From Polytrichum commune (lineage: Eukaryota; Streptophyta; Polytrichopsida; Polytrichales; Polytrichaceae): 64,000 nt of DNA. The stretch covers positions 24,386,527 to 24,450,526 of the forward strand of contig OX485808.1 in the NCBI GenBank assembly GCA_950295325.1. Reading direction: 5' to 3'. The notes under the pieces were generated by a model. The model was not told where the DNA came from, did not search any database, and saw only the letters and a list, made by a program, of their open reading frames with translations. The number at the start of each line of letters is the position of its first letter. Within the stretch, counting starts at the first letter, position 1. A program made the position numbers and the translations under genes. This document shows positions 6,278 through 59,768 of this stretch, one piece after another.

Positions 6278-7720
6278 TCAAAGTCTTTGTAACCTCCAAG
6301 AACTCATATCCAACGTAACCACCGAGGTCAAGTTGCCCAATGTCTCCGGTAATTCCTTCAAGTTCTCGCAACAACTCAAATCCAACGTAACCAACGAAGT
6401 CAAGTTGCCCAATGTCTCTGGTAATTCCTTCAAGTTCTCGCAATAAGTCTAATCCAACGTAACCAACGAAGTCAAGTTGCACAATGTCTTTGGTTATTCC
6501 TTCAAGTTCCAACATTCACTCAAGTTCAACGTAACCAACGACGTCAAATTGCCCAATGTCTCTGGTAATTCCTGCAACTCCCAGCATTCAATCAAGTTCA
6601 ACGTAACCAACGAAATCAAGTTGCCCAATGTCTCTGGTAATTTTTTCAAGTTCGAGCAATGCCTCAAGTTCAATGTAACCAACGAAGTCAAGTTGCCCAA
6701 TGTCTTTGGTAATTCCTTCAAGTTCGAGCAATACCTCAAATCCAACATAACCAACGAAGTCAAGTTGCCCAATGTCTCTGGTAATTTCTTCAAGTTCTCG
6801 CAATAAGTCAAATCCAATGTAAGCAACGAAGTCAAGTTGCCCAATGTGTCCGGTAATTCCTTCAAGTCCCAACAACGACTCAAATCCAACGTAACCAACG
6901 AAGTCAAGTTGCCCAATGTCTCTGGTAATTCGTTCAAGTTCCAACAACAACTCGAGCTCAACGTAACCAACAAAGACAAGTTGCCCAAAGTCTCCGGTAT
7001 TTCCTTCAAGTTCAAGCAGTCACTCAAGTTCAACGTAATTAACGAAGTCACGTTGCCCAATGTCTCTGGTAATTCCTTCAACTCCTCACAATGTCTCAAA
7101 TCCAACGTAACCAACAAAGTCAAGTTGCCCAATGTCTTCGGTAATTCCTTCAAGTCCAAGCAACCACTCAAATCCAACGTAACCAACGAAGTCAAGTTGC
7201 CCAATGTCTCCGGTAATTCCTTCAACCCATTGCAATCGTGTAAGTTCAATGTAACCAACGAAGTCATATCGCCCAATGTCTCCGGTAATTCCTTCAAGTT
7301 TTCGCAATAACTCAAATCCAACGTAACCAACGAAGTCAAGTTGCCCAATGTCACTGGTATGCATTCCAATTGCCAAAAGTTTCTCAAGCTAAGATATTCT
7401 AACATCTTAAGTGTACCAATTTCACATGGAAGGTGTTTCAAATGCATAAACATTTCCATGTCCAACACACGCAATTGTTTGAATGGAATGAAAATTGATG
7501 GTTGCAGTTCATCAATTCTCGCAATGCTATTTTCTCCAAAGCTCATGCTTATACGCATCCACCTCAATTTCCTCGCATTCTCCATTGTTTTGTAAAAATA
7601 ATCAACATCCTCAAATTTTTTTATATGCAAAAGCCTAATGTTCTCTAAATCCTTGTTTGTAAGCATGTTGTAATTGCAATGAGATCCATCTATATGAGCA
7701 CCTTCCACATTTTGTATCAT
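6278..7720 (-). CDS. Receptor copy A exon: LRR array with premature stop
   Basis: The exon starts MIQNVEGAHIDGSH and reaches a nearly perfect 24-residue (72-bp) LRR repeat built on LKELPETLGNLTSLVTLDLS. About 12 LPxTLGN units occur before TAA at 6494-6496, where the usual codon in other units is TTA. The frame continues for about three more units, with a TAG at 6449-6451, and ends at TGA 6278-6280. The lesion removes only the last units, so a shortened receptor could still be made. The near identity of units at DNA level implies recent expansion or homogenisation. Confidence 0.85.
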
Positions 7721-10700
7721 CTGCATCAATTACAACACAAAACATCATTCATGTCATTCCATTAAGTGCATTGATATTGTCATTCTATGAATAGATTAGG
7801 AAAACTCAAATCAAATACACTTTCTTCCCTTATACTCTTCCCTACAACATATCTTATAAATGGACGCTCAATTCAACTAAACTTGGACGCTTTATGATTA
7901 CGAAACTACACAAAGATGATGAATATTCATTTACCATGCACGCATCATATTTTGTGGCCTCAAACTCATCAAAATTCCAAATTCTTTGCCCTCCAATATG
8001 CTCTTTGCATGCTATCATACGTCCCATGTCACGTAAATGATCATGCATTGTCAACATCCCATCCGAATCCATTCGCACAAGACTTCGGTCCATGAGATTC
8101 AAAAGTGCAAGATCTGTGTTACCATCTTCACAATTCCATATTCTCAACGCCTTCTCTTCTTGCATCCCCTCCTCCAAAACATCGCGACAAAAAAAGCAAG
8201 CAATGTCCAAAAACATGTTCTTCTCCTCTTCATCCAAATTATCGTAGCTTATCCTCAACGTTCTCCATATCCTTTCATTGTTCCAACTACCACCAAGGCA
8301 TTGTGCCCTTTGTAATCTTCGCAATGCTTGTTGCCATACCCTAGGCCTTTCAACTCCACACAAATAACTTCCCAATACTTCTAAGCTCAAAGGTAGTCCA
8401 CCACATGCTTCGATGACTTTATTGACAACTTCTTCAAATTGCGGCCCTTGAGGTCGGTGTTGCAAAAATGCATGCTTGTAGAATAGCTCCTTTGCTTGAC
8501 CTTCGTCCAATAACTCCATGTCCATCTTTGCGGTGTTTGAAATACAAGTTGTTTTTAAGTCCTGCCAATTTCGACTTGTGGCAATGATCTTGCTACCGTT
8601 AGCAAACACCCACGTAGATGAAACTAGCCCATGGAGTTGTTCTTGAGAGGCAACATCATCAAAGACAACAAAGACCTTTTTGTTCTCAAATATGTTTTGT
8701 AAGCACTTGAACCCCTTTTCTGTGCTCGATATGGACTTCTCGTCCTTGAGATCCTTCAACAATTGTCTTTGTCTATCCAAAACATTTTTGGAGTCTCTCA
8801 TATTTGCCACAAAGCTTGTTGCTCCAAAGCCTTGATGCACACGATGAAGAATGGCCTTTGTCAAAGTGGTTTTTCCACTTCCACCCATCCCGACGATGCC
8901 TAGAATTTGATTGGATTCTAGTTGAAATAACACGTTTGAGATTATTTTATCAATATTGACAAAATGAATCGGGAGTGACGGTAATGAGTGTGTGGACCGC
9001 ACTTGTGATGGAAGTATTCGGTTCGCCCATGAAAACGGTGTGGAAAGCTGAAACCTCTATAGATACAAAATTTGATATTAGATATTGGTTCAAAACAAAA
9101 GTTGTAATAAATGCACAAGAGTATGATTTCTATGAATGCTATCACAATACCTTAATTATCTCATTTAAAAGAATACAATACTTTTAATAAGGTTGTAATT
9201 TTGCATTTGGATCCAATATTTGACAAGAATGGATACAACATGATAAATTGATTATATTTGAACCCATTCAAAAGCTAATTTAAACTTAATATCTAAACCA
9301 TTCAATGTATAGTTAGGATTAGTACCATGGCATGAATTTGACTTGTATGTTGGGCCTCATAAGCTTCTCTCCCTTCCAAATCGGGTTTCTTCCAAAAGCA
9401 TTTGAACATGTACATGACATTATGAGGTAAATTTAAAATCCTTTGAGACACAGTTGTTTGTTGTTCCACCTCTTGCTTTCTAAATGCAACATTTCCCCTT
9501 AAAATGGAGCTCCTCAAATCTTCCAATGTTGCGCAAATCTCTTTGAATCTGGGTCTCTTTGTTCGGTCTAATGACCAACATTCCTTGATCAAGGAGACCA
9601 AAGCCTCAGGACAATCATCAGGCACCCATGGCCTCTCACCTGACCTTAGCCTCGTAGGAAGATCATCACCATTGCCTTCAAATGGTTGTTTTCCTGAGAG
9701 TATTGTTGCACACATCACACCAAAACTGTATACATCGGCTTCATGTGCATTCACTTTCTTCACTAAAGAGTACGTCATGTTCTCTCTCTTTGGTTTGTTG
9801 TTTTGGAATAGCTCTGGTGCTTTGTATAGCCTTGTCCCAATACCTTGGCTTAATTTCTCAGAAATGTTACTATCCACATCCGTTTTTGAAAGTCCGAAGT
9901 CGGCCAACTTCACATTCACATAGTTGTCCTTGTGCAATTCGTCAACCATGATTCTATGCACCAATACATTGGCAGGTTTTAAATCCCGGTGGGCAATTTT
10001 CTTCTCATGTAGATAGCTCATGCCCTTTGCAATTTGCAAAACAATGTCCATAGCTACTTGAATTGGGAAGGATGTCCTTGTTCCGCTATTTGATACCTCT
10101 TTGATCAATTCCTCCAGGTTTGTGTCTAGAAGCTCCATAGCAATGAAACACTTGAGTTTCTTTGGTTTTCGGCCACAACATATGAACTTCACGACATTTG
10201 GATGATTGACACTTGCAAGTATGGCAACCTCTTTCTTAAAGAGTTTGTCCCCATCTTCCATGTCACCCAAAATTTGCACCTTCCTCGCACATGGCAAACC
10301 AAACCAAGTTGTTTTCTCTACATTGCCATAGGCACCTCCTCCAAGTGGGATTGAGCCTCCCCAACCCATACGTGCATCAACCTCCACATGGTGTCCACCA
10401 TTAACATAGTTTCTTTGATTGTGAAATCTTTCCAACAAGTATGCCGCAATTGTTAACTCTTCATCAAGGTCCTTGTTCTTCGAGGATGAATGGGTGGATT
10501 CAATTGTTGTTTGGCAATGCCTCATCAACACATGATGATCTTTAACTCCCAATTCACTCATGGTGCTTAGTGAAAAACTCACATCATTCCTATATTGGTC
10601 CAGTTGTCCAACCCATTGGCCTTTGAAGTGTTCATAAATATCATCATAACAAGATTTGAGATTCATGAACAAGTCTCGGAACACCTCTTCATTGTGGATT

Positions 10701-10996
10701 TGGAGCAATGTTGCACGCCACCATTTCTCACCATAGCATTCTTGTACCAACAACTTGGCCCTTTCAATAATTCGCAACAACTCTTTCAAGAGCAAGTCAA
10801 AGTTGTTAAGAAACTCATCGGAATGGGAGAGAATACTAGCTACGCTTTTGGTGGAGTTTTGAAGCGTTCGTGCAAGACATATGCATTGACTTTGATTCAA
10901 TGCAAACCTGGCACCACCCTCACACACAAGTTGTTGTATGTAGTCGGTATTGAGTATACAAAGCCCCAAGATATTGGATTGATTAGCCATCATATC
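6278..10996 (-). CDS. Kinase-NB-ARC-LRR immune receptor, copy A
   Basis: Three adjoining minus-strand open regions form one gene. Exon 10996-9326 (557 codons) encodes a helical N-terminus and a protein kinase. Exon 9056-7935 (374 codons) encodes NB-ARC. Exon 7720-6278 encodes LRRs. Each junction has AG before and GT after, and every exon is a multiple of three, so all introns are phase 0. Approximate positions are glycine loop 219, HRDLKP 335, DFG 366, P-loop GMGGSGKTT 614, VVFDDV 689, GLPL 776 and MHD 893. The family senses pathogen effectors in the cytoplasm; the nucleotide-binding domain acts as a switch. Kinase-fused NLRs are known from mosses. A TAA at 6494-6496 ends the LRR region early, giving about 1339 residues; a second in-frame stop lies at 6449-6451. 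The start is uncertain: an acceptor precedes GATATGATG at 10996, so either the ATG at 10993-10991 begins translation or an unseen upstream exon exists. Confidence 0.88.
7935..9056 (-). CDS. Receptor copy A exon: NB-ARC nucleotide-binding domain
   Basis: The exon begins RFQLSTPFSWANRILPSQ and continues to the P-loop GIVGMGGSGKTTLTKAI. It then shows kinase-2 KVFVVFDDVAS, RNBS-B NGSKIIATSRNW, CGGLPLSLEVLGSYL and the MHD motif in LTMHDHLRDMGR. All ATP-binding and switch motifs are present, so the domain looks functional. Exon length is identical to copy B (1122 nt). I count about 15 amino-acid differences over roughly 360 residues, pointing to a fairly recent duplication. The donor site follows DACM at 7935. 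Confidence 0.9.
9326..10996 (-). CDS. Receptor copy A exon: N-terminal helical region plus protein kinase
   Basis: Residues 1 to about 205 are helical-looking with no membrane segment, and include ICLARTLQNSTKSVASIL and a WW pair. They recall the four-helix N-termini (HeLo/DUF1221 type) found before plant kinases, but that match is from memory and weak. The kinase follows: GGGAYGNV loop, ARKV lysine, HRDLKPANV catalytic loop, ADFGLSK, APE and DVYSFGV. All catalytic residues are present, so it should be active rather than a pseudokinase. Compared with copy B, the frame is intact and there are five extra codons (AFRKQ) near the 3' end. The donor after CATGCCATG is weaker than B's CCCAAG, which may matter for splicing. 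Confidence 0.88.
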
Positions 10997-11480
10997 CTGC
11001 ATACAAAAACAACAAAGAAGGAAAGAATCAGAGCCACATGCCATCCACAAATTGAATGCCACGTCACACAAAGAACAAAAAACAATAACATTTGGCATAA
11101 TTTGTATATGCAATGCATGGCAAGACTTCTTCTATGCTTGATGCCCACTTGGTGTCATTGTTGTGTTGTTTTCAAACAACTCTTCATATGGAACACACCT
11201 TGTCTAAAGGCAAACCAACATAGCAATGCAATTGATGTCGATCAAAATTGGACTTTTGATGGTCTAGTCATCTCGGTTGTCAGAACAAACAACATATGTG
11301 TGGGTAGAATGGAAAAGTTTCTAAGAAATGACATGCCCAACTTGACTTGATACATTCATTTTATGCATTATAGTTCGGTCATTGGGGCGATTCCAATTGG
11401 ATATTATTAAATCCACCAAATTATTTTGCACTCCAAACATACCAACATTATAAATTAACACATAATTTTATTATATAGTA
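10997..11480 (-). promoter_or_regulatory. Conserved receptor 5' flank, copy A
   Basis: This stretch lies upstream of the receptor acceptor site and is almost the same in copy B (37053-37465). It should contain the first intron, the leader and perhaps the promoter. I cannot place a TATA box or donor site with confidence. Open frames on the plus strand (10595-11350) are antisense shadows. Confidence 0.4.
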
Positions 11481-23900: not shown

Positions 23901-26478
23901 GCCATATTAAGCTTGCATGCAGGTTAGATGACGATTGCCATCGTATTCCACTTCTCCACAATCATAGCCACATTGTATACAAAGGTAGGCCACAACGCTA
24001 GGCTTAAGCATTACATAACCAATTGTCGAACTCTCAAGTTCATATCCTCGAACACCCATCCTTTGGTTGTGGTAGCATCACCATCTTTCAATTGAAAGTG
24101 CGATTATGGGTATTGGCTACCGTGATTTAGAGACGTGGCGACAAAATCTTGACTCTCAATGAATTCACAATGAGGAGGTGGATTCGGGGGATGGGGTTGA
24201 AGGTTTGGAGTTTGCTTGGAGGCACATATGCCAAACTACTACTATAAATCGGTGGTGGAGTGTACACAAGCTTGTAAGGCTTGAAGGGTCGCAACTTCCA
24301 AGCCAATTCGTTACAAAGGCCAATTTCCACACACACACGTATGTATCTTACTCCATAAACAACTCCTCAATTGTATATTTTTGTACTCTTTGACATCAAC
24401 ATATGGCCTCATGTGATTGCAAAATTACTCTAAGTTTGAGTTTAAGTTGCCATTAGAATGTCTACCAATTTAGTGTGGCCCACGTTATTCATCAACCACA
24501 GTATATGTTCTGCAAGCACTGGGTAGAAACTTGTTGAGAAGGTGTTGTCACTTGGTGGTACATGGCAAGTTGTGAAGCCCACTCTACTTAGAATGGCACA
24601 TTTGTTTTCACATATCACACTAAATCATATGTTTGGGATGTAGCCGCAAACTTGTATGTGAACATGAGGCGGGTTTATTGAGCAAGGCTTTGATACAATT
24701 GGTTATTGTTGAAGGTGATCCCTAAGAGTAATTGCACATGTCATCTTTGTTGATAGAGGCATGAGACCTCGGGTTTCATGTTTGACATTGTAAGTTGCAC
24801 GTCCCATTATCATTGTCACACAAGTGGATTTCTTGAGCTTTATGCATCAAATTTTCCTTAAAATAACATGCCCCCCCAAAACCATTTTGGGGGAGGAAAG
24901 TTCAAATAATAGGAATGTGTTGGCCCCTGGGGGATGCACTCCATTGTCAAGTTGAACACCACATGCTATAAAAAATATATATACGTTGTACATAAAGCAT
25001 CACCAAAAAGGGTCAAAATTTTATCAATTGTTTTTCATGAGTAGATGACATACACAGTATCTATTACATAGTAAAAAATGGTAACCATATTTGACAAAAA
25101 AAAATTCCCATAAAACATACCGTTTCTAACTAGAATGATGCATAATTGAACTATAACAATTACTAAAAAAAATGAAGATGACTAAAAATTTCAAAATTAT
25201 TTACAAAAGATATTATCAATGGTTATGTGTATGTAGAGGACAAATCATAATTCTTGAAATTATCTATGGCACATAATGTATAATACCAAACTTTTATCAC
25301 ACATGGTTATGAAACGTAAGGGGGTGTGATCGCCCTGAGTGTTAGCCTAAAAAAAGATTAGTGTGAAATGCCACACTTCATAACTCATATCAATAGGCTT
25401 ATGCAAACTTATTAAATTTTCCCCATGATTCACAGTATATTCTAGTTCATAATTTACTGTTGGTCAACTCTCCTTCCTTGAACTTCATTTATCCCTTTCA
25501 ATTTGTCGGCCATCAATGTGAAATGTTATTTGGGTAAAAGTGAATCACATTTTAATATGGAAAGGGGTGGGAAGGGAGGTCAAACTTTTGGTGTTTACAG
25601 ACCGTTTTCTACAATTTGGCTAACACATGGAAGTGTGCCCTTAATCTTCCATATAAGCTCTAGAAAGGTAATGTCACATATATATATATTACATGTTCCT
25701 CACATTCATCACCTTGCAACATGCCACTTAACTTATTATAAACATCTTATTGAGTAGCTGAAATAAAAACATCTAAAAAAATAGGTATGTTAGATTGACC
25801 ATACACTAGTTAAAACGGCCATAAAGATGCATACAAAAATGTTGGCCAAATTTATCAATTCTAATTTAGAGTTGATACCTTGCTCCTCTGCATGTGGGTG
25901 ATGAAAATCATATTTTAACAGGTCATGTGACTGCACGATGCGTCGATGTGATTGAATTTAACAACCCCCTAGGAAAAACACAACTTGTTTTAGGTTTTTA
26001 GGATGTCCTAGATTTTAAATAAGACCTTAGAGAGAGACTGCATTTGATATCATGTGTTAACATCATTTTTAGAATTTATATAATCCAATGTCATTATGGC
26101 CATTTTGAATATAGTAAATAGATAAGTATAAGATAGACAAGTTAATTAAGCATAATTTGTGCAATTTGTGCAATTTAAAAAAAAAAGGTTTCGTTTGTCA
26201 TAGGATATGATTCATACATAAGATGGGAAATAACATAGGGAATAAGCTCATAATAGTAAGAATGTGCACATGGTTGTGTGATTGATTAATAGAAACCACA
26301 TATTAAATATATATTACAAGTATTTGAGGTGTAAAATATAGAAATTAAAATAATTTGATTTACAATCCATGTCAAATGAAGGTATAATTCAAACATATAA
26401 GATGAAAAATAAATAAAATTGGACGACGATAAGATGTACGTTATATTCATGAAATTCACAAAGTTTATGACTATAACA
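20906..26478. repeat. Segmental duplication block shared with 46166-50609 and 59765-60750
   Basis: This long stretch matches copy B closely, but in B it is split by the 9155-bp transposon. Minus frame 21884-22105 (73 codons) is kept at the same length in B (47157-47378) with a few replacements, and its words SNFNWLFLNLNQF look faintly LRR-like, too little to call. Other shared frames (21476-21715, 24127-24336) are unrecognised. A C15 run is at 22321-22335. I report no gene. Confidence 0.8.
25357..25360. other. Empty target site of the 9155-bp transposon
   Basis: Copy A reads GATTAGTGTGAAATGCC here with a single ATTA. Copy B has ATTA on both sides of the element. This gives the pre-insertion state directly. 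Confidence 0.88.
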
Positions 26479-32656: not shown

Positions 32657-33792
32657 CTAAGAACTCATATCCAACCTAACCACCGACGTCAAGTTGCCCA
32701 ATGTCTCTGGTAATTCCTTCAAGTTCGAGCAATATCTCAAATCCAACGTAACCAACGAAGTCAAGTTGCCCAATGTCTCCGATAATCCCTTCAACTTGGA
32801 GCAACTCCTCAAACCAACGTAACCAACGAAGTCAAGTTGCCCAATGTCTTGGGTAATTCCTCCAACTTCGAGCAACACCCCAAATCCAACGTAACTAAGG
32901 AAGTCAAGTTGCCTAATGTCTCCGGTAATCTCTTCAAGTTCGAGCACTGCCTCAAATCCAACCCAACCAATGAAGTCAAGTTGCCCAATGTCTTTGATAA
33001 ATATTTCAAGTTCGAGCAATACCTCAAATCCAACGTAACCAACGAAGTCAAGTTGCCCAATGTCTCCAGTAATTCCTTCAACTTCGAGCAATGCCTCAAC
33101 TCCAACGTAACCAACGAAGTCAAGTTGCCCAATGTCTCCGGTAATTCCTTCAAGTTCCAACACCAACTCAAGCTCAACGTAACCAACGAAGTCAAGTTGC
33201 CCAATGTCTCCGGTAATTCCTTCAAGTTGCAACAAATACTCAAATCCAACGTAACCAACGAAGTCAAGTTGCCCAATGTCTCCGGTAATTGCTTCAACTT
33301 CAAGCAATACCTCAAATCCAACGTAACCAACGAAGTCAAGTTGCCCAATGTCTCCGGTAATTCCATCAACTTGCAGCAGTCACTCAAATCCAACGTAATC
33401 AACGAAGTCAAGTTGCCCAATGTCTCTGGTATGCATTCCAATCGCAGAAAATTTCTCAAGCTAAGATATTCTAACATCTTAAGTGTACCAATTTCACATG
33501 GAAGGTGTTTCAAATGCACAAACCTTTCCATCTCCAACACACGCAACTGTTTGAATGGAATGAAAATTGATGGTTGCAATTCTTCAATTTCCGCAATGCT
33601 ATATTCTCCAAAGCTCATGCTTATACGCATCCACCTCAATTTCCTCGCATTCTCCATTGTTTTGTAAAAATAATTGACATCCTTAATTTCTTTGATATGC
33701 AAAAGCCTAATGTTCCCTAAATCCTTGTTTGTAAGCATGTCGTAATTCCAATGAGATCCATCTATATGAGCACCTTCCACATTTTGTATCAT
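32657..33792 (-). pseudogene. Receptor copy B exon: LRR array with frameshift
   Basis: About nine LPxTLGN units are read in frame before the missing base near 32813; about two more follow in the shifted frame, ending at TAG 32657-32659 after TSVVRLDMSS. Copy A has about 12 units before its stop and three after it, so the arrays differ by several 72-bp units. Such change is expected from unequal crossing-over between near-identical repeats. Confidence 0.82.
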
Positions 33793-34005
33793 CTGCATCA
33801 ATTACAACACAAAACATCATTCATGTCATTCCACTAAGTGCATCGATATTGTCATTCTATGAATAGATTAGAAAACTCAAATCAAATACATTTTCTTCCC
33901 TTATATTCTTCCCTACAACATATCTTATAAATGCACACTCAATTTAACTGAACTTGGACGCTTTATGATTACGAGACTAGACAAAGATGATGAATATTCA
34001 TTTAC

Positions 34006-35127
34006 CATGCACGCATCATATTTTGTGGCCTCAAACTCATCCCAATTCCAAATTCTTTGCCCTCCAATATGCTCTTTGCATGCTATCATACGCCCCATGT
34101 CACGTAAATGATCATGCATTGTCAACATCCCATCCGAATCGATTCGCACAAGACTTCGGTCCATAAGATTCAAAAGTGCAAGATCTGCGTTACCATCCTC
34201 ACAATTCCATATTCTCAACGCCTTCTCTTCTTGCATCCCCTCCTCCAGAACATCGCGACAAAAAAAACAAGCAATGTCCAAAAACATGTTCTTCTCCTCT
34301 TCATCCAAATTATCGTAGCTTATCCTCAACGTTCTCCATATCCTTTCATTGTTCCAACTACCACCAAGGCATTGTCCCCTTTGTAATCTTCGCAATGCTT
34401 GTTGCCATACCCTAGGCCTTTCAACTCCACACAAATAACTTCCCAATACTTCCAAGCTCAAAGGTAGTCCACCACATGCTTCGATGACTTTGTTGACAAC
34501 TTCTTCAAATTGCGGCCTTTGAGGTCGTTGTTGCAAAAATGCATGCTTGTAGAATAGCTCCTTTGCTTGACCTTCGTCCAATAACTCCATGTCCATCTTG
34601 GCGGTGTTTGAAATACAAGTTGGTTTTAAGTCGTGCCAATTTCGACTTGTGGCAATGATCTTGCTACCATTAGCAAACACCCACGTAGATGAAACTAGCC
34701 CATGGAGTTGTTCTTGAGAGGCAACATCATCAAAGACAACAAAGACCTTTTTGTTCTCAAATATGTATTGTAAGCACTTGAACCCCTCTTCTGTGCTCGA
34801 TATGGACTTCTCGTCCTTGAGATCCTTCAACAATTGTCTTTGTATATCCAAAACATTTTTGAAGTCTCTCGTATTTGCCACAAAGCTTGTTGCTCCAAAG
34901 CCTTGATGCACACGATGAAGAATGGCCTTTGTCAAAGTGGTTTTTCCGCTTCCACCCATACCGACGATGCCTAGAATTTGATTGGATTCTAGTTGAAATA
35001 ACACGTTTGAGATTATTTTATCAATATTGACAAAATGCATCGGGAGTGAGGGTAATGAACGTGTAGACCGCACTTGTGATGGAAGTATTCGGTTCGACCA
35101 TGAAAATGGTGTGGAAAGTTGAAACCT
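34006..35127 (-). pseudogene. Receptor copy B exon: NB-ARC domain (frame intact)
   Basis: The exon opens RFQLSTPFSW like copy A and contains GMGGSGKTT, VVFDDVAS, GLPLSLEVL and LTMHDHLRDMG. No stop or frame change occurs within the exon. Differences from A include R/H after VRST, NTRDF for NMRDS, and NWDEF for NFDEF. Confidence 0.85.
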
Positions 35128-35397
35128 CTATAGATACAAAATTTGATATTAGATATTGGTTTAAAACAAAAGTTGCAAAAAAATGCAAAAGAGTATTATT
35201 TTTGTGAATGATATCTAAGTACCTTGATTATCTCATTTAAAAGAATACACTACTTCTCATAAGATTGTACTTTTGTATTTGGATCCAATATTCCACGAGC
35301 ATGGATACAACAAGATAAACTGATTATATTTTGAACCCATTCAAAAGTTAATATAAAGTAATCTCTAAACCATTCCATGTATAGTTAGGACTAGTAC

Positions 35398-37052
35398 CTT
35401 GGGATGAATTTGAGTTGTATGTTGGGGCTCATTAGCTTCTCTCCCCTCCAAATTTGATTTCTCCCAAAAGCGTTTGAACATGTACATGACATTGCGAGCT
35501 AAATTTGAAATCATGTGAGACACAGTTGTTTGTTGTTCCACCTCAACATTTCCCCTTAAGATGGAGCTCCTCAAATCTTCCAATGTTGCGCAAATCTCTT
35601 TGAATTTGGGTCTCTTTGTTCGGTCTAATGACCAACATTCGTTGATCAAGGAGACCAAAGCCTTGGGACAATCATCAGGCACCCATGGCCTCTCACCTAA
35701 CCTTAGCCTTGTAGGAAGATCATCACCATTGCCTTCAAATGGTTGTTTTCCTGATAGTATTGTTGCACACATCACACCAAAACTGTATACATCGGCTTCA
35801 TGTGCATTCACCTTTTCCACTAAAGAGTACGTCATGTTCTCTTTCTTTTGTTGGTTGTATTGGAATACCTCTGGTGCTTTGTACAACCACGTCCCAATAC
35901 CTTGGCTTAATTTCTCAGAATTGTTGCTATCCACATCCATTTTTGAAAGTCCGAAGTCGGCCAACTTCACATTCACATAGTTGTCCTTATGCAATACGTC
36001 AACCATGATTCTCTGCACCAATACATTCACAGGTTTTAAATCACGGTGGGCAATTTTCTTCTCATGTAGATAGCTCATGCCCTTTGCAATTTGCAAGACA
36101 ATGTCCATAGCTACTTGAATTGGGAAGGATGTCCTTGTTCCGCCATTTGATACCTCTTTGATCAATTCCTCTAGGTTTGTGTCTAGAAGCTCCATAGCAA
36201 TGAAACACTTGAGTTTCTTTGGTTTTCGGCCACAACATATGAACTTCACGACATTTGGATGATCGACACTTGCAAGTATGGCAACCTCTTTCTTAAAGGT
36301 TTTGTCCCCATCTTCCATTTCACCCAAAGCTTGCACCTTCTTTGCACATGGCATACCAAACCAAGTTGTTTTCTCTACATTGCCATAGGCACCTCCTCCA
36401 AGTGGGATTGAGCCTCCCCAACCCATACGTGCATCAACCTCCACATGGTGTCCACCATTTACATAGTTTCTTTGATTGTCAAATCTTTCCAACAAGTATG
36501 CCGCAATTGTTAACTCTTCATCAAGATCCTTGTTCGTAGAGGATGAATGGGTGGATTCAACGGTTGCTTGGCAACGCCTCATCAACACATGATAATCTTC
36601 AACTCCCAAATCACTCATGGTGCTTAGTGAAAAACTCACATCATTCCTATATTGGTCGAGTTGTCCAACCCATCGGCCTTTGAAGTGTTCATAAATATCA
36701 TCATAACAAGATTTGAGATCCATGAACAAGTCTCGGAACGCCTCTTCATTGTGGATTTGGAGCAATGCTGCACGCCACCATTTCTCACCATAGCATTCTT
36801 GTACCAACAACTTGGCCCTTTCAATAATTCGAAACAACTCCTTCAAGAGCAAGTCAAACTTGTTAAGAACTCATCGGAATGGGAGAGAATACTAGCTACG
36901 CTTTTGGTGGATTTTTCAAGCGTTCGTGCAAGACATATGCATTGACTTTGATTCAATGCAAACTTGGCACCACCCTCACGCACAAGTTGTTGTATGTAGT
37001 TGGTATTGAGTATACAAAGACCCAAGATATTGGATTGATTAGCCATCATATC
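35398..37052 (-). pseudogene. Receptor copy B exon: N-terminal region and kinase, one-base deletion
   Basis: The first segment MMANQSNILGLC to HSDEF is in one frame (37047 to about 36868). The remaining region from LLKELFRIIERAKLLVQEC onward, including GGGAYGNV, AKKV, HRDLKPVNV, ADFGLSK and APE, is in another. The donor CCCAAG/GTACTAG at 35398/35397 is a good match to consensus, better than in copy A. All kinase residues needed for activity remain. Confidence 0.82.
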
Positions 37053-50605: not shown

Positions 50606-50609
50606 ATTA

Positions 50610-50633
50610 AACACCGGTTTCGTTAAAAGTGCA
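50610..50633 (+). repeat. Left terminal inverted repeat of the transposon
   Basis: This 24-bp sequence starts AACACCGGTTTCG and ends AAGTGCA, and is perfectly complementary to 59741-59764. Just inside is CATAAGCATGTGCA, giving a small GTGCA-based subterminal inverted repeat. Confidence 0.95.
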
Positions 50634-51146
50634 CATAAGCATGTGCATTTTTTTGGGGGATTATTTTTTAATATTTTATTCTCAACTTTTGGAATGATTG
50701 CATAATAAATTCGTATTTTAACACAAATACTTTCAAATATTATTAGTTTCAAATATTTCCAAGATAAGGCTAATACACTATATGACCATTATATATATAT
50801 ATAGTGTTTAACTTTTTTAGTAAAAAAATTTACGTTATGAAATAAATCACGGGAATAAAACACATTTGTTTGTGTATAGCTTAAAATACATTATTTATGA
50901 ACCTAATGAAAAGTGCGACACATACACCTCACCCTTGGACCAAACACATGAAAATAAATTGAAACTAAGTGACACAACACTTGCTTCATCATAGAAGTAA
51001 TAATATTGAAATTGATGGTTCCAAAGAAAATAACGACATACTTGTGTCATTTTATATTGAAATATCAATATATAATATAACAAATATTTTTCTTTCCAAA
51101 CTATATATATCTATATAATAAAATACGAATATGAACTAAAATAGTT

Positions 51147-53857
51147 TTAACCATCCAAAAAGTCTAAACCTAAACCTAGAGAAAACATATTTTTGCGTAC
51201 ATCTGGATGTACCAATGCATATTCTCCAAACTCTGTTGCTCCAAGTATACTAGCATTTACTTCAAGTTCTTCATCATGATTGAGTCCAAAACTTTGTTCA
51301 ACATATTTGTATTTAACATGATCTTCTGCATTTACAGAAGGAAACGCCTCACGGCTAAAAAACTTCATATTTCCATTAGTCCACAATTCTACACCTTCAT
51401 TCCAAAAATATTCATCTTCGTTTGTTTGAGCTGCTGCAATATTAGATTTTTGTTTTTTTGTGAAGTGTCACCTTTAAAAGTAGAAGCATGTTCTTTACGC
51501 TTCTTTACTAAAGATTCACCTCTTCCCACCTCATATCCATTGTAATCATCACTATCAACATCATTGTCATCATCTTCATCATCACTATCGTTGTCATCAT
51601 CATCATCAGAAGTATTTTGAAATTTTTCTTTATCCAACCACAATGGATTTTTGTCATTTAGAACTTGTCTAATTTTTTCCACATAACGTTCTTTCCATTT
51701 CTCAAGCCAAACTTCCATGTCCAAATTTGATTCCATCAAAACGAGTTGCTCAATTCTACCACAAATGTTTTCAATCAAATGTGAAAACCCTTCCATCATC
51801 AACATCCAATCTCAGGAAAAAAAATGACTTATCAACTCGTCAACAACTGTTGGACAACGAGCCATTCGATTTTTTGAACACATACTCCAACCACTGGATG
51901 GCTCAATATAGTATGACTGAATACTTTGCGGTGTTCCCTTGTCATTGGCAAAATTATTTTCCAAATAAGTATTAAGGGGGTGTCGTAAACCACAATGGAT
52001 TGCCCAATAGGAGAAAATTTAGCAATACATTTTGGTCCATCTTTCACTACAAAGCATGTAGTCTCTGATTGGGGACCAAAACTATATGTCCCAACGTGTA
52101 CAAAAAACTCAGGAATATTGTTCAAACCAATCAAATTTTGAATATGTTTCACATTTTCTCCAACGGAAAGCATAAAAATAACATTCCAACGTTGTACATC
52201 TCCCGTCCACGATTCAATTTTTTTCATAATTGATGCATATTCTGTTTATGTCCAATAACCATTTGTAGGTCCATTTCGACAATCAAAAATCCATAATGCA
52301 CTTCTTCAAAAAATACCACTATCATTCTTGAAAACAAAACCGCCAATCTTAATTTCTGTTGAGAATCCCAAAGAATTTGTTCCTTCATAATTGAAACTCA
52401 TTTTCTAATTTCCAACATCAATTCGAGGAATAACTTTTCCATTGCAAAAAAGACCCAAACCACCTTCTATAATAAGTTGATGATGATCAATTACATTACG
52501 AGGTATAAAATCAACATGCTTATGTTGTTTAATATAATTTGTTTGATAATTGATGTGGCTCCATCGTTTCAAAAATTCATTACCTTTTGGAATGTCTTTG
52601 GCGAAATAGTCTAGTCCTTTCCACCAAATCTTTCCACATCTGTCTGTAACCAATTTTTTTTCTCACCAAATGGATCAAAACGTCCAGATTCCAACCACTT
52701 GAATGTATTCTGAATACCTGCTCGAGGTTTCGCAACATCACACCAATGGGCCAATTCAGGTTCACTTTTTTTTCTATCAAACCACAATACTTGCTTCTTA
52801 TCCACAGAGTCTGAAGTTAGCTGCTTACAAAGTAATATGTGTTCATTTGTTGTAAGACCTTGTAAAGGGCGAAGGCAACCAATGAACATACGTGGACGCT
52901 CTGACATTGAATATTTGATCTTCTTCCCTTTGTTTGATATTGATGATCCAAGCTTCACACTTCTATGTTTTTTTTATTTGAATATTAATCCATTGTCATA
53001 TGCATCGCACATATCTTTTAACGCCTGCCAACAAGTATTTGGAAGTGTAGCCATGGATGTATAATCACAAAAAAATTCTCTCATTTGCAAAATTGAAATT
53101 TTGCCATCCCCCAACCTTGTGCTTGTAATGCTTGGCATGGAACGTAAGAATTTTTTACGGTTCTCATCTTCAGCATTAGGTTGACCAAAATTTTTCCACA
53201 ATATTCTAGCTTTTTCTAACATTTCTCCCGTTGTACTATGGTACTTCCTTTCTGTTGTAATGTCATTCAATCTTGTTGATGAAAAAAGATATGTAATTTC
53301 ATTGTCATACAACACAATTGTTGCGGGTCGACACAAAAATATCTTATCATAATCTGCTTGAGAAAGCGATCCACATAAAAGATTATTCTTGGCCAAAATA
53401 TTGCACGCATGTTCCACATGTTGTCCATCAACAGGTTCCCAAATAATACCGTTGAAAAAACATTGTTTTTTCTCTTCTATAGAATCTCCAGGCATACTCT
53501 CCAAGCATTGGAAAAAAAAGTCCTTTGACCCCACACCCTTGAAGCATTTCAAAACATAAGAAAAAATTGCATTTGAGGCTTTTGAAACAACGAATATCTC
53601 GCAAGAATCCATATCATGTGTATAGGCAGGAGTAACAATTTTTTGAACAATTTCTCCTTTGGCCCATGCTTTAGAACACCATACTTTGTTTTCCATCCAG
53701 GGATAAGTAGAAATCTTTAGGACCACATGCTTGTCGTCGCGTGTCAGAAACCATCCATAATCCTTAAAAGCATTCGAAGGCTTCAAACATTTATTCGGGG
53801 GGGCCCTGGAAGGCCCACCCCCCTTGTCCCGCATAATCACACCTCCAACCTCACTTC
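51147..53857 (-). pseudogene. Transposon companion gene, unrecognised family
   Basis: A run of minus-strand frames spans about 2.7 kb. 53857-52977 begins after a possible acceptor (GCTTGTAG/GAAGTG) and includes MRDKGGGPSRAPPNKC and IVLYDNEITYLFSSTRLND. The same frame continues past a TAA (52974-52976) with ERPRMFIGCLRPLQGL. A frame change at an A8 run near 52660 leads to GKIWWKGLDYFAKDIPKG. Later parts are QRWNVIFMLSVGENVKHI, a frame change at a C5 run near 51983, IEPSSGWSMCSKNRMARC, an acidic aspartate/asparagine tract (51530-51610), and a C-terminal frame ending at 51147. I recognise no domain. It may bind DNA or assist transposition; that is a guess from position alone. Confidence 0.6.
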
Positions 53858-53944
53858 CTACAAGCACACATAAACCATTTTAAAGACATAAAAATATCCT
53901 CTAAACACATTACATTTTATACAATCACAACAACATTCGATTTT

Positions 53945-54225
53945 CTCAGTAAGGGTGATACATGTGGCCTCACCTCTAAGCACAAGCATAAGGAAAAATT
54001 GAAATTTCTTAAGGTGAGGCATGTGCCTCACCCCAAAAACACAAATTCACAACATAGAACTTTGTTTGATAAGGGTGATGAGGCATGTGCCTCACCTCTA
54101 AGTACAAGCCTAAGGAAAAATTGAAATTGCATTTAAGGAGGGTGAGGCATGTGCCTCACCCCTAAAACACAAATTCACAACATAGAACTTTGTTAGATAA
54201 GTGTGAGGCATGTGCCTCAACCCTA
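53945..54225. repeat. Palindrome array 1 (TGAGGCA-TG-TGCCTCA)
   Basis: At least four close copies of GTGAGGCATGTGCCTCAC lie at about 54014, 54079, 54142 and 54203, with a weaker one near 53957. They are embedded in alternating longer repeats (CACAAATTCACAACATAGAAC and AAGGAAAAATTGAAATT). Each arm pair TGAGGCA/TGCCTCA is separated by two bases. The array lies just upstream of the companion gene start. Confidence 0.85.
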
Positions 54226-54749
54226 AACACGTGGAGAAGAGTGGCGGTGGAGAAGAGCGGCGGCTGAAAAACTTGACCTAACCCTAAGCATTCTAGGTTA
54301 GTTCAAATGTTTGTTTTTTAATCTTATATGTGTGAAGAAACTTTGTATTGGTCTATCATGCATAGATTTAAGAATTTACACCTGAATTTTTTTAGGTGGG
54401 CCGGTGGCACTATTCTACTCATACCTAGCACACATACCTAGCACACATACTCATATGTTTTTAGTTTCTTGGAAATAAAATAGAATTTCTATAAATATTC
54501 AATTTCATCTACATAAATATTATAAATACAACTTTAAAATATAAAATATAAAATAATATATTATACAAACATATTTAATCAATATCCATATTTTCTCATA
54601 TTCAATTCAAGTATTGCTCATTTTAACGTAGGGATAACGGGAGGTTGTTGATCTTATATTCTCCCGTATTTGGTATTTACCCTTACATATTTTAGAGCGA
54701 TGAAGCACATACCACACCTTGTGGAGCCTTAATTGGTTATTTTAAGATT

Positions 54750-55010
54750 TAAAGGGGTGAGGCATATGTCACACCTTGTGGAGCCGTAATTAGTTTTTCT
54801 TCAAATTTTAAGGGGGTGGGGCATATGCCTCATCTTGTGAAGCAGTACTTAGTTTTTTTTCAAATTTTAAGGGGGTGGGGCATATGCCTCATCTTGTGAA
54901 GCAATATTTAGTTTATTTTCAAATTTTAAGGGGGTGGGGCATATGCCTCATCTTGTGAAGCAGTACTTAGTTTATTTTCAAATTTTAAGGGGGTGGGGCA
55001 TATGCCACAC
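54750..55010. repeat. Palindrome array 2, about 59-bp tandem units
   Basis: Units contain GGGGGTGGGGCATATGCCTC followed by ATCTTGTGAAGCAGTACTTAG and TTTTCAAATTTTAAG. Three nearly identical full units plus divergent ones at both edges are seen. The GGCATATGCC core is a true palindrome and resembles that of array 1. It lies upstream of the transposase-like gene. Confidence 0.88.
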
Positions 55011-55348
55011 CTTTCATATTCATAATTAGCTTTGTTCGAGTTTAAGGGGTGGAAAGGAAAGGTTGAGGCACATACTCCGAAGTAGTAAGTAACTTTATCT
55101 AAAGTCTAAAGAAGTGAGGTACATTTCATACCTCCAATTACACACCATAACTTCATCTAATAGATTGTCAATCGAGTCTTACCTATATATTTTACGGTTC
55201 AACAAAAGAAGCCTAGTCTATGTTTTATTTCTTTCATTACATAATTTGTTACTTAAGTTATATAACTTCTCAAACATTTTTAATATGTACTTATCAATGT
55301 TTATTTCTTCTTTTTCATCAGACTTTGATATATCATGAAATAAGTTAC

Positions 55349-58300
55349 ATGGATCCTTATTTGGATTCAATGGAACGTGAAGATGAAGGTAGATCTCCTT
55401 CATTCATTCGACATCGTGCAAATAGAAGTTTTGAGAGGCAAAATGAATATCTTCTTAATTACGAAGAATTATTGGAGGACCAAAGGTTTGTTTATCTTTA
55501 CGACATTCATGGCAAAGAAGTTGGAAAATGACTCTTACAAGATATGGTTGTCGGTGATATATTACATGATAAACCAATATCTCCAGATGATGCAGTGGTT
55601 TTTATACAAGGTATTACAGTCCCGGAAACTCGGGTTCATGAATTGAATTTGACATTTATGAGTGATTGCCTTCACAAGTTTATTTGATGGCCTAGAAGTC
55701 AAATCAAACAGTTTTAACTACCAACAACTCCTAATTTGCATTTACCTCATATACATTGTACTCCATCACCTCTTATGAGCCAAATGTCAAATACTTCTAT
55801 TTATGATCGTTCATCTTTTGAACACACTATGGAAGGGTTACCCGAATCTCATGCTCGTCGTCCATATGTTCATAAAACTCGAGCAAACAAAAAATCTAAG
55901 GGTCCTCGCATCCTAGGAATTTCCAGAGCTGATAAATTACTTTAATTGATGTACGTGAAGCAAAAATTAAAAGGCCTTGTAAAAAATAATGCCTCCAAAA
56001 TATAGATGAACATGATATTTTATCTTTGCGATATCAAACATTGGGTATGACAAAGTATAAAGATAGAGCATGTTGGATCTTAACAACTCTTCGAGGATTC
56101 TGAGTTTCGTGTCCAACTGCACCAATGGAGATGAAATTCGAAGCAAGAATAGTTGGACAAAAAGTTTGCATTGTATGTTTTGCAAATGCAGTGGGATATT
56201 CACTTCGAAGGTTGAATTCTATTTTATCATAAATACGAAAAATTAATGTGATAGATGTTTTTCATGGAAATTGCGGAAAGAGAAAAGAAACTATTCATAT
56301 TAGTATGGCCCGAGCACATTTTGAGTCATATATTAAGTTTTTTGGAGAATCTCAACCTCATCGCCAGGTTCGTCGAAAATGCGATGGACAAAATGTTGAA
56401 GTGATTTGTCTACCTATGAATTACGTCAATCTGAAGTATGAACTGCTATAAATAATGCATTGGAACGTATGGGTGAAGCTAAAGTTGGATTGTCAACTTT
56501 TAAGAAAATGTGGAAACAAGAATATACCAATGTACATGTTCCCACAGAATCAAGATTTTCAAAATGCCAGATTTGTTGAGAATACAAAGGGAGTATTAAG
56601 GCAATGCCTAATGAACGTATGAAGCAGGCTATTCAACAATCTTATAATCTCCATATTGATTTGACCATGGAAGAAAGAAAAGATTATAGTCGAGCACGAC
56701 AAGCAGCAATTGAAAGCCCTGATGATATCATGATTCTCATTATTGATGGTATGGACCAAAATACTACAATTGTGCCTAGATTCAAACAAACGGTAAAAGG
56801 CATCGAGTCTCAATTTATAAAGACTCATTTATGTGGAGTCCTTGTTCATGGCATTGGTTTATATTGTCATATATGGGTGGATTCTCATCACAAGCATGAT
56901 AGTAATCAAGTGGTTACATCTATTATGAAAGTGTTATGTGATGTAAAACACCGAAAATGACGACTACCACCTGTACTCCGCATCCAAGCAGATAATTGTG
57001 GAGAGAAAACAATAATGTATATATTCTTGGTCTTTATGCAACTCTAGTAGCCCTTGGATTCTTTAAAGAGATTCAATTATCATTTCTGATAGTAGGTCAT
57101 ACTCATGAGGATATTGATCAACGTTTTAGCTATATATCTTCAGCTTTGAAGCGACAATATATTGACTCCTTAGAAGAAATGTTGCAAATTATTCGTGAAC
57201 GTCCTATCTTTATTGAACCATTTATTCATGCAGAGCATCTTGAATATATAAGAGATTGGAAGAGTTTCATTACACCGTATTTGTGAGAAGATGCATTTGT
57301 TGGGATTAATAAACCCCATCATTTTAGATTTTATATGCAAGATAATAAGCCACATGTTCAATACAAAGACTATGCAAAGTCTCTATTATGGATTCCTGAA
57401 AATTGACATATTTGTCTTTCTGAAATTCCAAATGTTCGCCTTCAAATTCGGGGCCATTCACGGTTGGGGTACTACTTTTGGGCGTCTAACGGAAAACGGA
57501 CTTTTTTGGATAACTTCACATACTTGGTATGCTTAGATTTGTATTGTGAAGCATATTTTGGATCATACCTACATTTCATACTCCATATCGAGTACACTGA
57601 CAAAGTTAATTTAGAAGGAATAGGGTCATCTAAGATATCCTTTTAATTCCTTAAAGGACATTCAGGAGTGTTGTCTTAATTGTTCACCTTAGGATCAAGG
57701 AATGAAAATGACAACAAGAATCAATCGAAACGATCCCAAATTTTTTTCCTCACACTCATCGTTCAAGTGTGTACCAATAGAACCAAATGTGTATTGAATA
57801 GCAATTGCCCAACTTTACATGTGGCACCAAACATGTCTAAATATACATATACTCACGACCACACGTAAAAATAACGTCTAGTATTAGAATTGGACAAAAA
57901 AATTTATATGAATGGACACATGACACTTTTACCAAGGTACCAATATACATAACAGGAAATAATTGACCACCAATGCACACCTAAATAGCAAAAAAATGCC
58001 ACTGATGTGGCCTAGGGTTTAGGGTTTAGGGTTTAGGGTGATTATTAAATAATAATAAAAATATTTCTTGATAAAGCTTATGAACTATCTACTTATTTAT
58101 GTAAAATTTATTGATCAAATAATAATAAATCATGATAAAAACCAAGATCAATGCGACATAGTCCTTAAGTCCTTTGTCCTGAAAGTAGTACCCTGATCGT
58201 GAATGGCCCCATTCCCTTAGCACCCATTGCTGAGCCAGAAGATAGGGAATTAAGGGCTTTGAATGATTTCATTTTACTAAAAGAACGACATATTGCACGC

Positions 58301-59205
58301 TACATGGACATTGAGAAAAATCTTCTTGCTATTGAAGCAACTGATAGGTTCGTTTCTTATTTGAAAGATTTTCGCTTGCAAAGTCACTTTGAGGCCACTT
58401 CTGCACCATTTTGGCCTCTTTTGGAAAATTTTCCAACCATACATTGTCCAGTACCACAAGAAGTGCAACCACTAGATTATCGAGTAATGGATATTTTGCA
58501 ATCACTTCCTCCTGTGATGAAGACATCTTATTTTGGACCTCGTTCCCAAATGCCAAGAGGACATCGTATTCGTGGTTCTTCAAATAATGTACGAGGGCAA
58601 GGTAGAAGAAGAGAAGGAAATGTAGAAGAAGTTGATGAACAAATAAATAGCGGGCAAACAAATGAGCGACAAGGAAGTCAAGGCCGTGAACAAGGAGGAC
58701 GAGTTAGAGGGGGACGTGGAAGGGGACGAAGTGAACGCCAAGGCAATGCACCCAATTTATTCATATCCAATGATAATGCAATTGACCGGTTTTCTACATT
58801 TGATCCGCATCAAGATGTGAAGGTGGGAATGGTTGTAGCAATGGAAACCGATGATATTGATCGACACTTGGGAATTCTTTTTTTTGTGGCAAAGGTGCTT
58901 TCTTTAAGTCAACAAGCTTGTGAAAATGGTGTTGCAAACGTTTTATGGTATCAACCTAAAATGCCAAGAAGATTACAAGATGAAGAAGGGAAGTTTCACA
59001 ATCGGTATACAAATTGTATACAACGTGCTTGGGAACCCTCTTGAGAAGCACATGATTGTATTCCGATTGGTTCAGTTTTCACTTCTTGGCATAACACTGT
59101 TGGGACCCAAAATTTGATTACCGTTTTGGGCATAAGAACTAAGAAAGAGTTAAAATTTCCCAATGGTGAAAATTTTCATTTTGAATATCACCTAAACCTT
59201 TTATA
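55349..59205 (+). pseudogene. Transposase-like gene (DUF7869-type), many stops
   Basis: The ATG at 55349 begins MDPYLDSMEREDEG. Reading through interruptions, recognisable blocks are a Cys-containing KCQIC near 56565, IIDGMDQ near 56740, HLCGVLVHG near 56830, QADNC near 56988 and SFLIVGHTHEDIDQ near 57082-57120. The last three resemble the RNase H-like core of DUF7869-type proteins, with aspartates and glutamate in DDE-like spacing. That family name is from memory. A third part (58199-59044) carries an Arg/Gly-rich tract and continues past TGA to TAA near 59205. Eight TGA and three TAA stops interrupt it, and one base is missing in DNCGREN near 57000. Introns may also be present, for example around 57640-58198. 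Confidence 0.72.
58013..58038 (+). repeat. Interstitial telomere-type repeat (TTTAGGG)
   Basis: Nearly four units of TTTAGGG occur inside the transposon, between parts of the transposase-like gene. The plant telomere motif at an interior site may mark break repair or may serve as a telo-box. Confidence 0.85.
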
Positions 59206-59740
59206 ATAGATTTGTAATATTAGCTTCAACTTTGTACTTTCCACATCTTTAAATGTGATGTATTTTTTTAATAAAATATAATGTTGAAGTTGAAACTTGT
59301 CAATGGATTGATGTGAATGGGATTCATTCTATCTTATTGATGACCTATTATTTATTGGTGTTCTTTGTGTAATTAGAAATTCAAACTTGTTCATATGCAA
59401 TGATGTTTGCCCACAGTATAGGATGGAGAAAATACCTGAATTTCTTATCTTGACCATAGAATATGTATTTAATGTTCTTGGCTTTATAACCATATTCAAA
59501 TAAATAAAATATAATTATACATAACTCCCATAAAATGAATTCCTCATCTTATTGTAGGATGAAGTCTTTTTACAAAAATCATCAAATTGTAATTTGATTA
59601 ATGACCAATAACATTGATCTAAATGTACCCATATTTATAATTTTTTAATTTATAGCCAATAAAATTATAATATGGTCATATTTTCATTGAAATCTACGCG
59701 TTTCCAATAATTTGTTCATGTGCACTTTTACATATTGAAT

Positions 59741-59764
59741 TGCACTTTTAACGAAACCGGTGTT
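59741..59764 (-). repeat. Right terminal inverted repeat of the transposon
   Basis: This is the perfect complement of 50610-50633. Immediately inside is a second TGCACTTTTA (59721-59730), so the right end carries the subterminal motif twice. Confidence 0.95.
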
Positions 59765-59768
59765 ATTA

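Follow-up and report, generated by a model that had tools for sequence, protein, structure and literature searches.

The DNA analysed here, referred to throughout as the window, is a stretch of 64,000 nucleotides from the moss Polytrichum commune (assembly GCA_950295325.1, contig OX485808.1, positions 24,386,527 to 24,450,526), and it contains a mobile element of 9,155 bp (window 50610–59764) that is one copy of a repeated family, here named F1. The element carries a broken transposase gene with the domain DUF7869 (PF25273), the remnants of a partner gene that is transcribed away from it, and tandem arrays between the two (Table 1). A sequence-only reading of the window had described a large transposon with 24-bp perfect terminal inverted repeats (TIRs), ATTA on both sides and a clean empty site in a paralogous stretch of the same window. 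All of these are present in the letters: the empty site holds a single ATTA, and the flanks of the element, joined after removal of one ATTA, match window 25149–25592 with 420 identities in 444 positions and without a gap at the junction.

Table 1. Features of the F1 element and its target site (window positions).
Feature	Position	Strand	Basis
Target duplication, left copy, ATTA	50606..50609	n/a	window letters, end-pair comparison
Left TIR, 24 bp, perfect, AACACCGGTTTCGTTAAAAGTGCA	50610..50633	+	window letters
Partner-gene remnants, transcribed away from transposase	51147..53879	-	open reading frames, relatives, F2 alignment
Tandem arrays between the divergent genes (53950-54230, 54748-55013)	53950..55013	n/a	motif search
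Broken transposase gene	55349..59044	+	frames 55217-55531, 56580-56960, 56996-57286, 58169-59044
Candidate catalytic D1 codon (IIDGMDQ)	56745..56747	+	alignments and letters
Candidate catalytic D2 codon (IQADN), between stop codon and frame shift	56991..56993	+	hand-counted position, alignments
VGHTHEDID motif, candidate third aspartate	57092..57118	+	alignments and letters
Nested insertion, 761 bp, 29-nt inverted ends starting GGGGCCATTCACG, 4-bp duplication ATTC	57450..58210	n/a	empty site in F1 copy C6:41938811
Right TIR, 24 bp, perfect	59741..59764	-	window letters
Target duplication, right copy, ATTA	59765..59768	n/a	window letters, flank alignment
Empty site, one ATTA, in paralogous stretch of window	25357..25360	n/a	flank alignment

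The element belongs to a family with a consistent insertion signature. The assembly that contains the window (407.8 Mb in 64 contigs, seven of them of 42–78 Mb) was searched with both ends of F1, the best 40 of 85 left-end candidates and the best 40 of 79 right-end candidates being scored, and at least 40 matches were obtained for each end, so that further copies carry the same ends. The 22-bp F1 terminus has 64 exact matches in the genome, compared with none for a reversed control pattern. Among the matches listed for both ends, 28 could be paired, the window included, and 24 of these pairs are flanked by an exact 4-bp duplication (17 of 20, 6 of 7, and the window itself), compared with five chance agreements in 380 deliberately mismatched end pairs built from the first 20 pairs. 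The 4-bp duplication that the sequence-only reading had noted at a single site is thus the rule for the family, with a duplication of another length, longer ones included, in none of the pairs. The duplicated bases vary (e.g. CTTC, GGGA, AGTG, TTAA, CCAT), and four pairs lack the 4-bp match: two, at C3:37896863 and C1:59036433, are off by a single base (the cases being ATTC/GTTC and CTTC/GTTC), and the others lie at C2:47352143 and C2:46388339. An assembly artefact or a chance inverted repeat, for which we found no supporting point, is refuted by the 64 exact end matches, by the duplications around the paired ends and by the empty site within the window.

Sixteen of the 28 pairs span less than 4.5 kb, and in many of the short copies part of the partner gene survives some 0.7 kb in from the left end. 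Short, internally deleted copies of this kind are to be expected if they are moved by proteins made elsewhere, and we infer that they have been mobilized in trans. At C3:17877971–17894103, three F1 left ends are spaced exactly 5,544 bp apart and have identical flanks; this arrangement is a tandem duplication that includes an F1 element.

The transposase copy in the window is broken. DUF7869 is matched in two adjoining frames (E 7e-07, and E 6e-27 at 56996–57286), as the DUF7869-like transposase of the sequence-only reading had led one to expect, and the two pieces are parted, around the second aspartate motif, by a stop codon together with a frame shift; the gene also holds the nested insertion listed in Table 1. 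The end of the gene given in Table 1 is that of the last frame found; the protein of the copy at C7:2065544 extends further. In the 11-kb copy at C6:41938811 the gene comprises 581 and 393 codons with a single TGA between them, a stop that the window copy shares with the C6, C7 and C2 copies and through which the C3 and C4 copies read.

From conservation, the catalytic pattern of the transposase can be read as D / D / GHxHxDxD. The last of these motifs is kept in all rows that reach it (9/9 in one alignment, A1, and 8/8 in another, A3), the first aspartate in seven of the eight rows of A3 that reach it, and the second in all reaching rows except one decayed copy, while the distance from the second aspartate to the first D of DxD is 39 residues in five of six proteins and 38 in the sixth. 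Because the residue before that first D is E or D depending on the protein, the triad appears to be DDD rather than DDE. We infer that the DUF7869 transposase is of the RNase-H-like DDD kind, with both chemistry and fold predicted from the conserved residues.

On the minus strand, opposite the transposase, the partner gene survives in six pieces (53879–52974, 52973–52611, 52662–52405, 52245–51832, 51811–51389 and 51467–51147) and lacks a middle stretch that longer F1 copies retain. The divergent arrangement, already proposed from the window, recurs in a second DUF7869 family of the same genome, F2 (terminus AACACAGTATTGAGG; 8.6 kb in C6), the transposase of which is 43% identical to that of F1. 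The F2 partner is 33–36% identical to the middle part of the F1 partner and 24–31% further on, and the motif WEPVDGQHVEHA is conserved in it. Since the partner is present and similar in F2, it is an integral component of the element rather than a gene captured from the host. One F2 partner, at C2:44396000–44405500, has an open frame of 882 codons and is bordered on one side by an F2 terminus; the 26.5 kb read around it contain no DUF7869 match. Between the divergent genes of the window, a 20-bp palindrome-like motif, GGTGAGGCATGTGCCTCACC, and its variants occur at nine sites (17 strand-wise matches), with no occurrence in any of 100 shuffles.

When the best 150 of 1491 candidates were scored, all 150 lay above the cut-off, so that at least 150 DUF7869 stretches are present in this genome, compared with none in 14 control genomes. 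Two further families, which we name after the length of their DUF7869 frames in amino acids (aa), were resolved among them. Elements of the 692-aa family are 22–28 kb long and have the terminus ATGGGGATATTAAC; of 13 pairs (C1:71777633–71799643, loci L060–L062, and 12 others), 11 show a 4-bp duplication. A 2-bp duplication was considered for this family and rejected: a mismatch-tolerant search showed that the last base of the terminus pattern varies, and this base therefore belongs to the target, making the duplication 4 bp. In one 692-aa copy, an NLI-interacting-factor-like phosphatase domain (PF03031, E 5e-11) is encoded as well. The 502-aa family measures 16–18 kb in ten paired copies (terminus AACACTATATTCGTTAAA, also written AACACTATATTCG; loci L050 and L115–L137), and 695 exact ends of it were found, 352 forward and 343 reverse, compared with none for the control. 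Its duplication is exactly 4 bp in all ten pairs, compared with 0 of 90 mismatched pairs; the near-identical ends together with these duplications suggest that the family has been recently and heavily active.

Among viral contigs, 86 stretches matched a search pattern and none was confirmed; among prokaryote genomes, three of 82 such stretches were confirmed, all on short contigs of metagenome bins. One of these, on a contig filed under a cyanobacterium (L069), is a 963-codon frame with 48% identity to the 502-aa family, and the other two (L070, L071) are in Bacteroidetes bins; the three are probably eukaryotic contamination.

The termini of the four families (AACACCGGTTTCGTTAAAA, AACACAGTATTGAGGAAAA, AACACTATATTCGTTAAAT and ATGGGGATATTAACTAAAA) begin AACAC... 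in F1, F2 and the 502-aa family and ATGGGG... in the 692-aa family, and they bear on a first alternative, namely that these elements are relatives of Chapaev and CACTA (EnSpm) with an En/Spm-like two-gene plan and a Chapaev-like 4-bp duplication. CACTA elements have a 3-bp duplication and a CACTA terminus. CACTA itself was rejected, given the 4-bp duplication of F1, its terminus AACACCGG, the absence of a Transposase_21 match in the transposase with E cut-offs of 5 or 10, and a probability of 0.2% (E 0.27) in an hhalign comparison with Transposase_21 from this genome, a weak test with a shallow profile built from a three-sequence alignment 89–92% identical to its first member. Chapaev duplications are of 3–4 bp (PMC4079192), Repbase places Chapaev within EnSpm (PMC4455052), and CAC does occupy terminus positions 3–5 in F1, F2 and the 502-aa family. 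Yet Chapaev (EnSpm/CMC) termini are described as invariably CAC...GTG (PMC4079192), a rule that none of the four families follows, and the F1 transposase has DxD and not a kept E. We therefore regard a Chapaev or CACTA affinity as doubtful, and of the two named affinities offered by the sequence-only reading, Sola-like and Chapaev-like, the latter falls with the terminus rule.

The former fares better, F1 agreeing with the published traits of Sola wherever a comparison could be made. Sola elements are described as having a DDD transposase, 4-bp duplications and varied termini and as present in Physcomitrella, with sizes of 2–9 kb, some above 15 kb, and TIRs of 11 to 1124 bp (PMC10741241); Sola1 in particular is tabulated for Physcomitrella (PMC9033089). 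The 4-bp duplication is seen in F1 (24/28) and in the other DUF7869 families (1/4, 11/13 and 10/10), the length of the F1 element and its 24-bp TIR are in keeping with the described sizes, and its three conserved aspartate motifs, the third position being D instead of a conserved E, would fit a DDD enzyme. Closest in plan is the brown-algal Sola1-1_Ec32, a giant of 21.5 kb in which a further gene is read from the other strand than the transposase; that gene encodes ParB-like and DNA methyltransferase domains in this one described family, and similar proteins are on record for transposons of green and red algae (PMC12477816). With the Sola1 group, as represented by the Physcomitrella elements and Sola1-1_Ec32, F1 shares the 4-bp duplication, a DDD-compatible transposase, large size and type of host, and with Sola1-1_Ec32 also the opposite-strand gene, a match of layout, the F1 partner being without a detectable ParB or methyltransferase match. 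Sola2 was rejected: its examples have AT-rich duplications of the form AWWT (PMC3627910), and F1, which shares with it the length of 4 bp, has duplications that include GGGA, AGTG, CCAT and CTTC. We thus consider it likely that F1, of which the window element is a decayed copy, is a family of cut-and-paste DNA transposons within the Sola superfamily and resembles Sola1 most closely. As a Sola1-like family, F1 is most likely new.

Several observations weigh against this assignment. Membership in Sola rests on shared traits. In F2, the duplication is exact (GATG) in one of the four copies with both ends found, and another has three of four bases equal. The transposase frame is interrupted in all six F1 copies inspected (window, C2, C3, C4, C6 and C7), although part of these interruptions may perhaps be introns. 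Two AlphaFold models were unusable (mean pLDDT, the predicted local distance difference test, 37 and 34) and lend no support to an RNase-H fold. Searches with the partner gene found nothing in Pfam up to E 10, nor in NCBIfam, PHROGs or PDB; its profile reached a probability of at most 0.1% against bacterial ParB and N6/N4 methyltransferase sequences, and the score observed against a trimmed ParB domain, which 46 of 100 shuffles also reached, is no better than that of shuffled sequence. A ParB or methyltransferase identity of the F1 partner, read by eye from a DGQH motif and, for ParB, from WEPVDGQHVEHA, is accordingly not supported, all profile tests being negative.

The same material could be read as a superfamily of its own outside Sola, defined by DUF7869, AACAC... 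termini and the 4-bp duplication. The term DUF7869 was not found in the literature searched, AACAC is shared by the termini of three divergent families, and a PDB search with the transposase profile returned nothing significant (best E 0.16, unrelated). We nevertheless think such a superfamily unlikely, since F1 agrees with Sola in every trait that could be compared and there is a moss record of Sola1 (PMC9033089). Improbable, too, is a bolder form of the idea, in which a DUF7869/AACAC/4-bp superfamily fills the genome with giants of 16–28 kb and has a self-binding, possibly DNA-modifying partner on the palindromic repeats. The suggestion of the sequence-only reading that the element is undescribed probably stands at the level of the family, given the silence of the literature searched on DUF7869, and a separate superfamily is not needed to account for it; its remark that no plant superfamily seemed to match should be weighed with the fact that the host is a moss and not a flowering plant.

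Under the Sola assignment, the DUF7869 transposase would cut at the AACACCGG... ends and join them to the target with a stagger of 4 bases, which would yield the 4-bp target duplication. The second gene, running in the opposite direction from a shared central region, is conserved within the element; its product is probably an accessory DNA-binding protein, for which the palindromic repeats between the genes would be the most likely binding sites. This scheme builds on features that are demonstrated: the element, its ends, the duplication rule, the family of copies with its shortened members, and a two-gene layout kept in a second family.

Elsewhere in the window, two clusters of LRR, NB-ARC and kinase frames, both on the minus strand (6494–11131 and 32809–36870), are paralogous, and so likewise are the regions around 25 kb and 50 kb that were compared at the empty site. 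The combination of kinase, NB-ARC and LRR, found side by side here, is a bryophyte trait and agrees with a moss as host.

As far as the literature searched goes, the tie between DUF7869 and TIR elements with 4-bp duplications is new, and it extends over four families, two of them giant. A Pfam domain of unassigned function is thereby given one, four families in one genome linking DUF7869 to inverted termini and 4-bp duplications. The 695 exact ends of a single family of about 16–18 kb suggest that Sola-like elements make up a sizeable share of this genome, which is of bryophyte type. F1 also provides a second case, after the algal Sola1, of the divergent transposase and partner layout, so that the role of the partner becomes a testable question.

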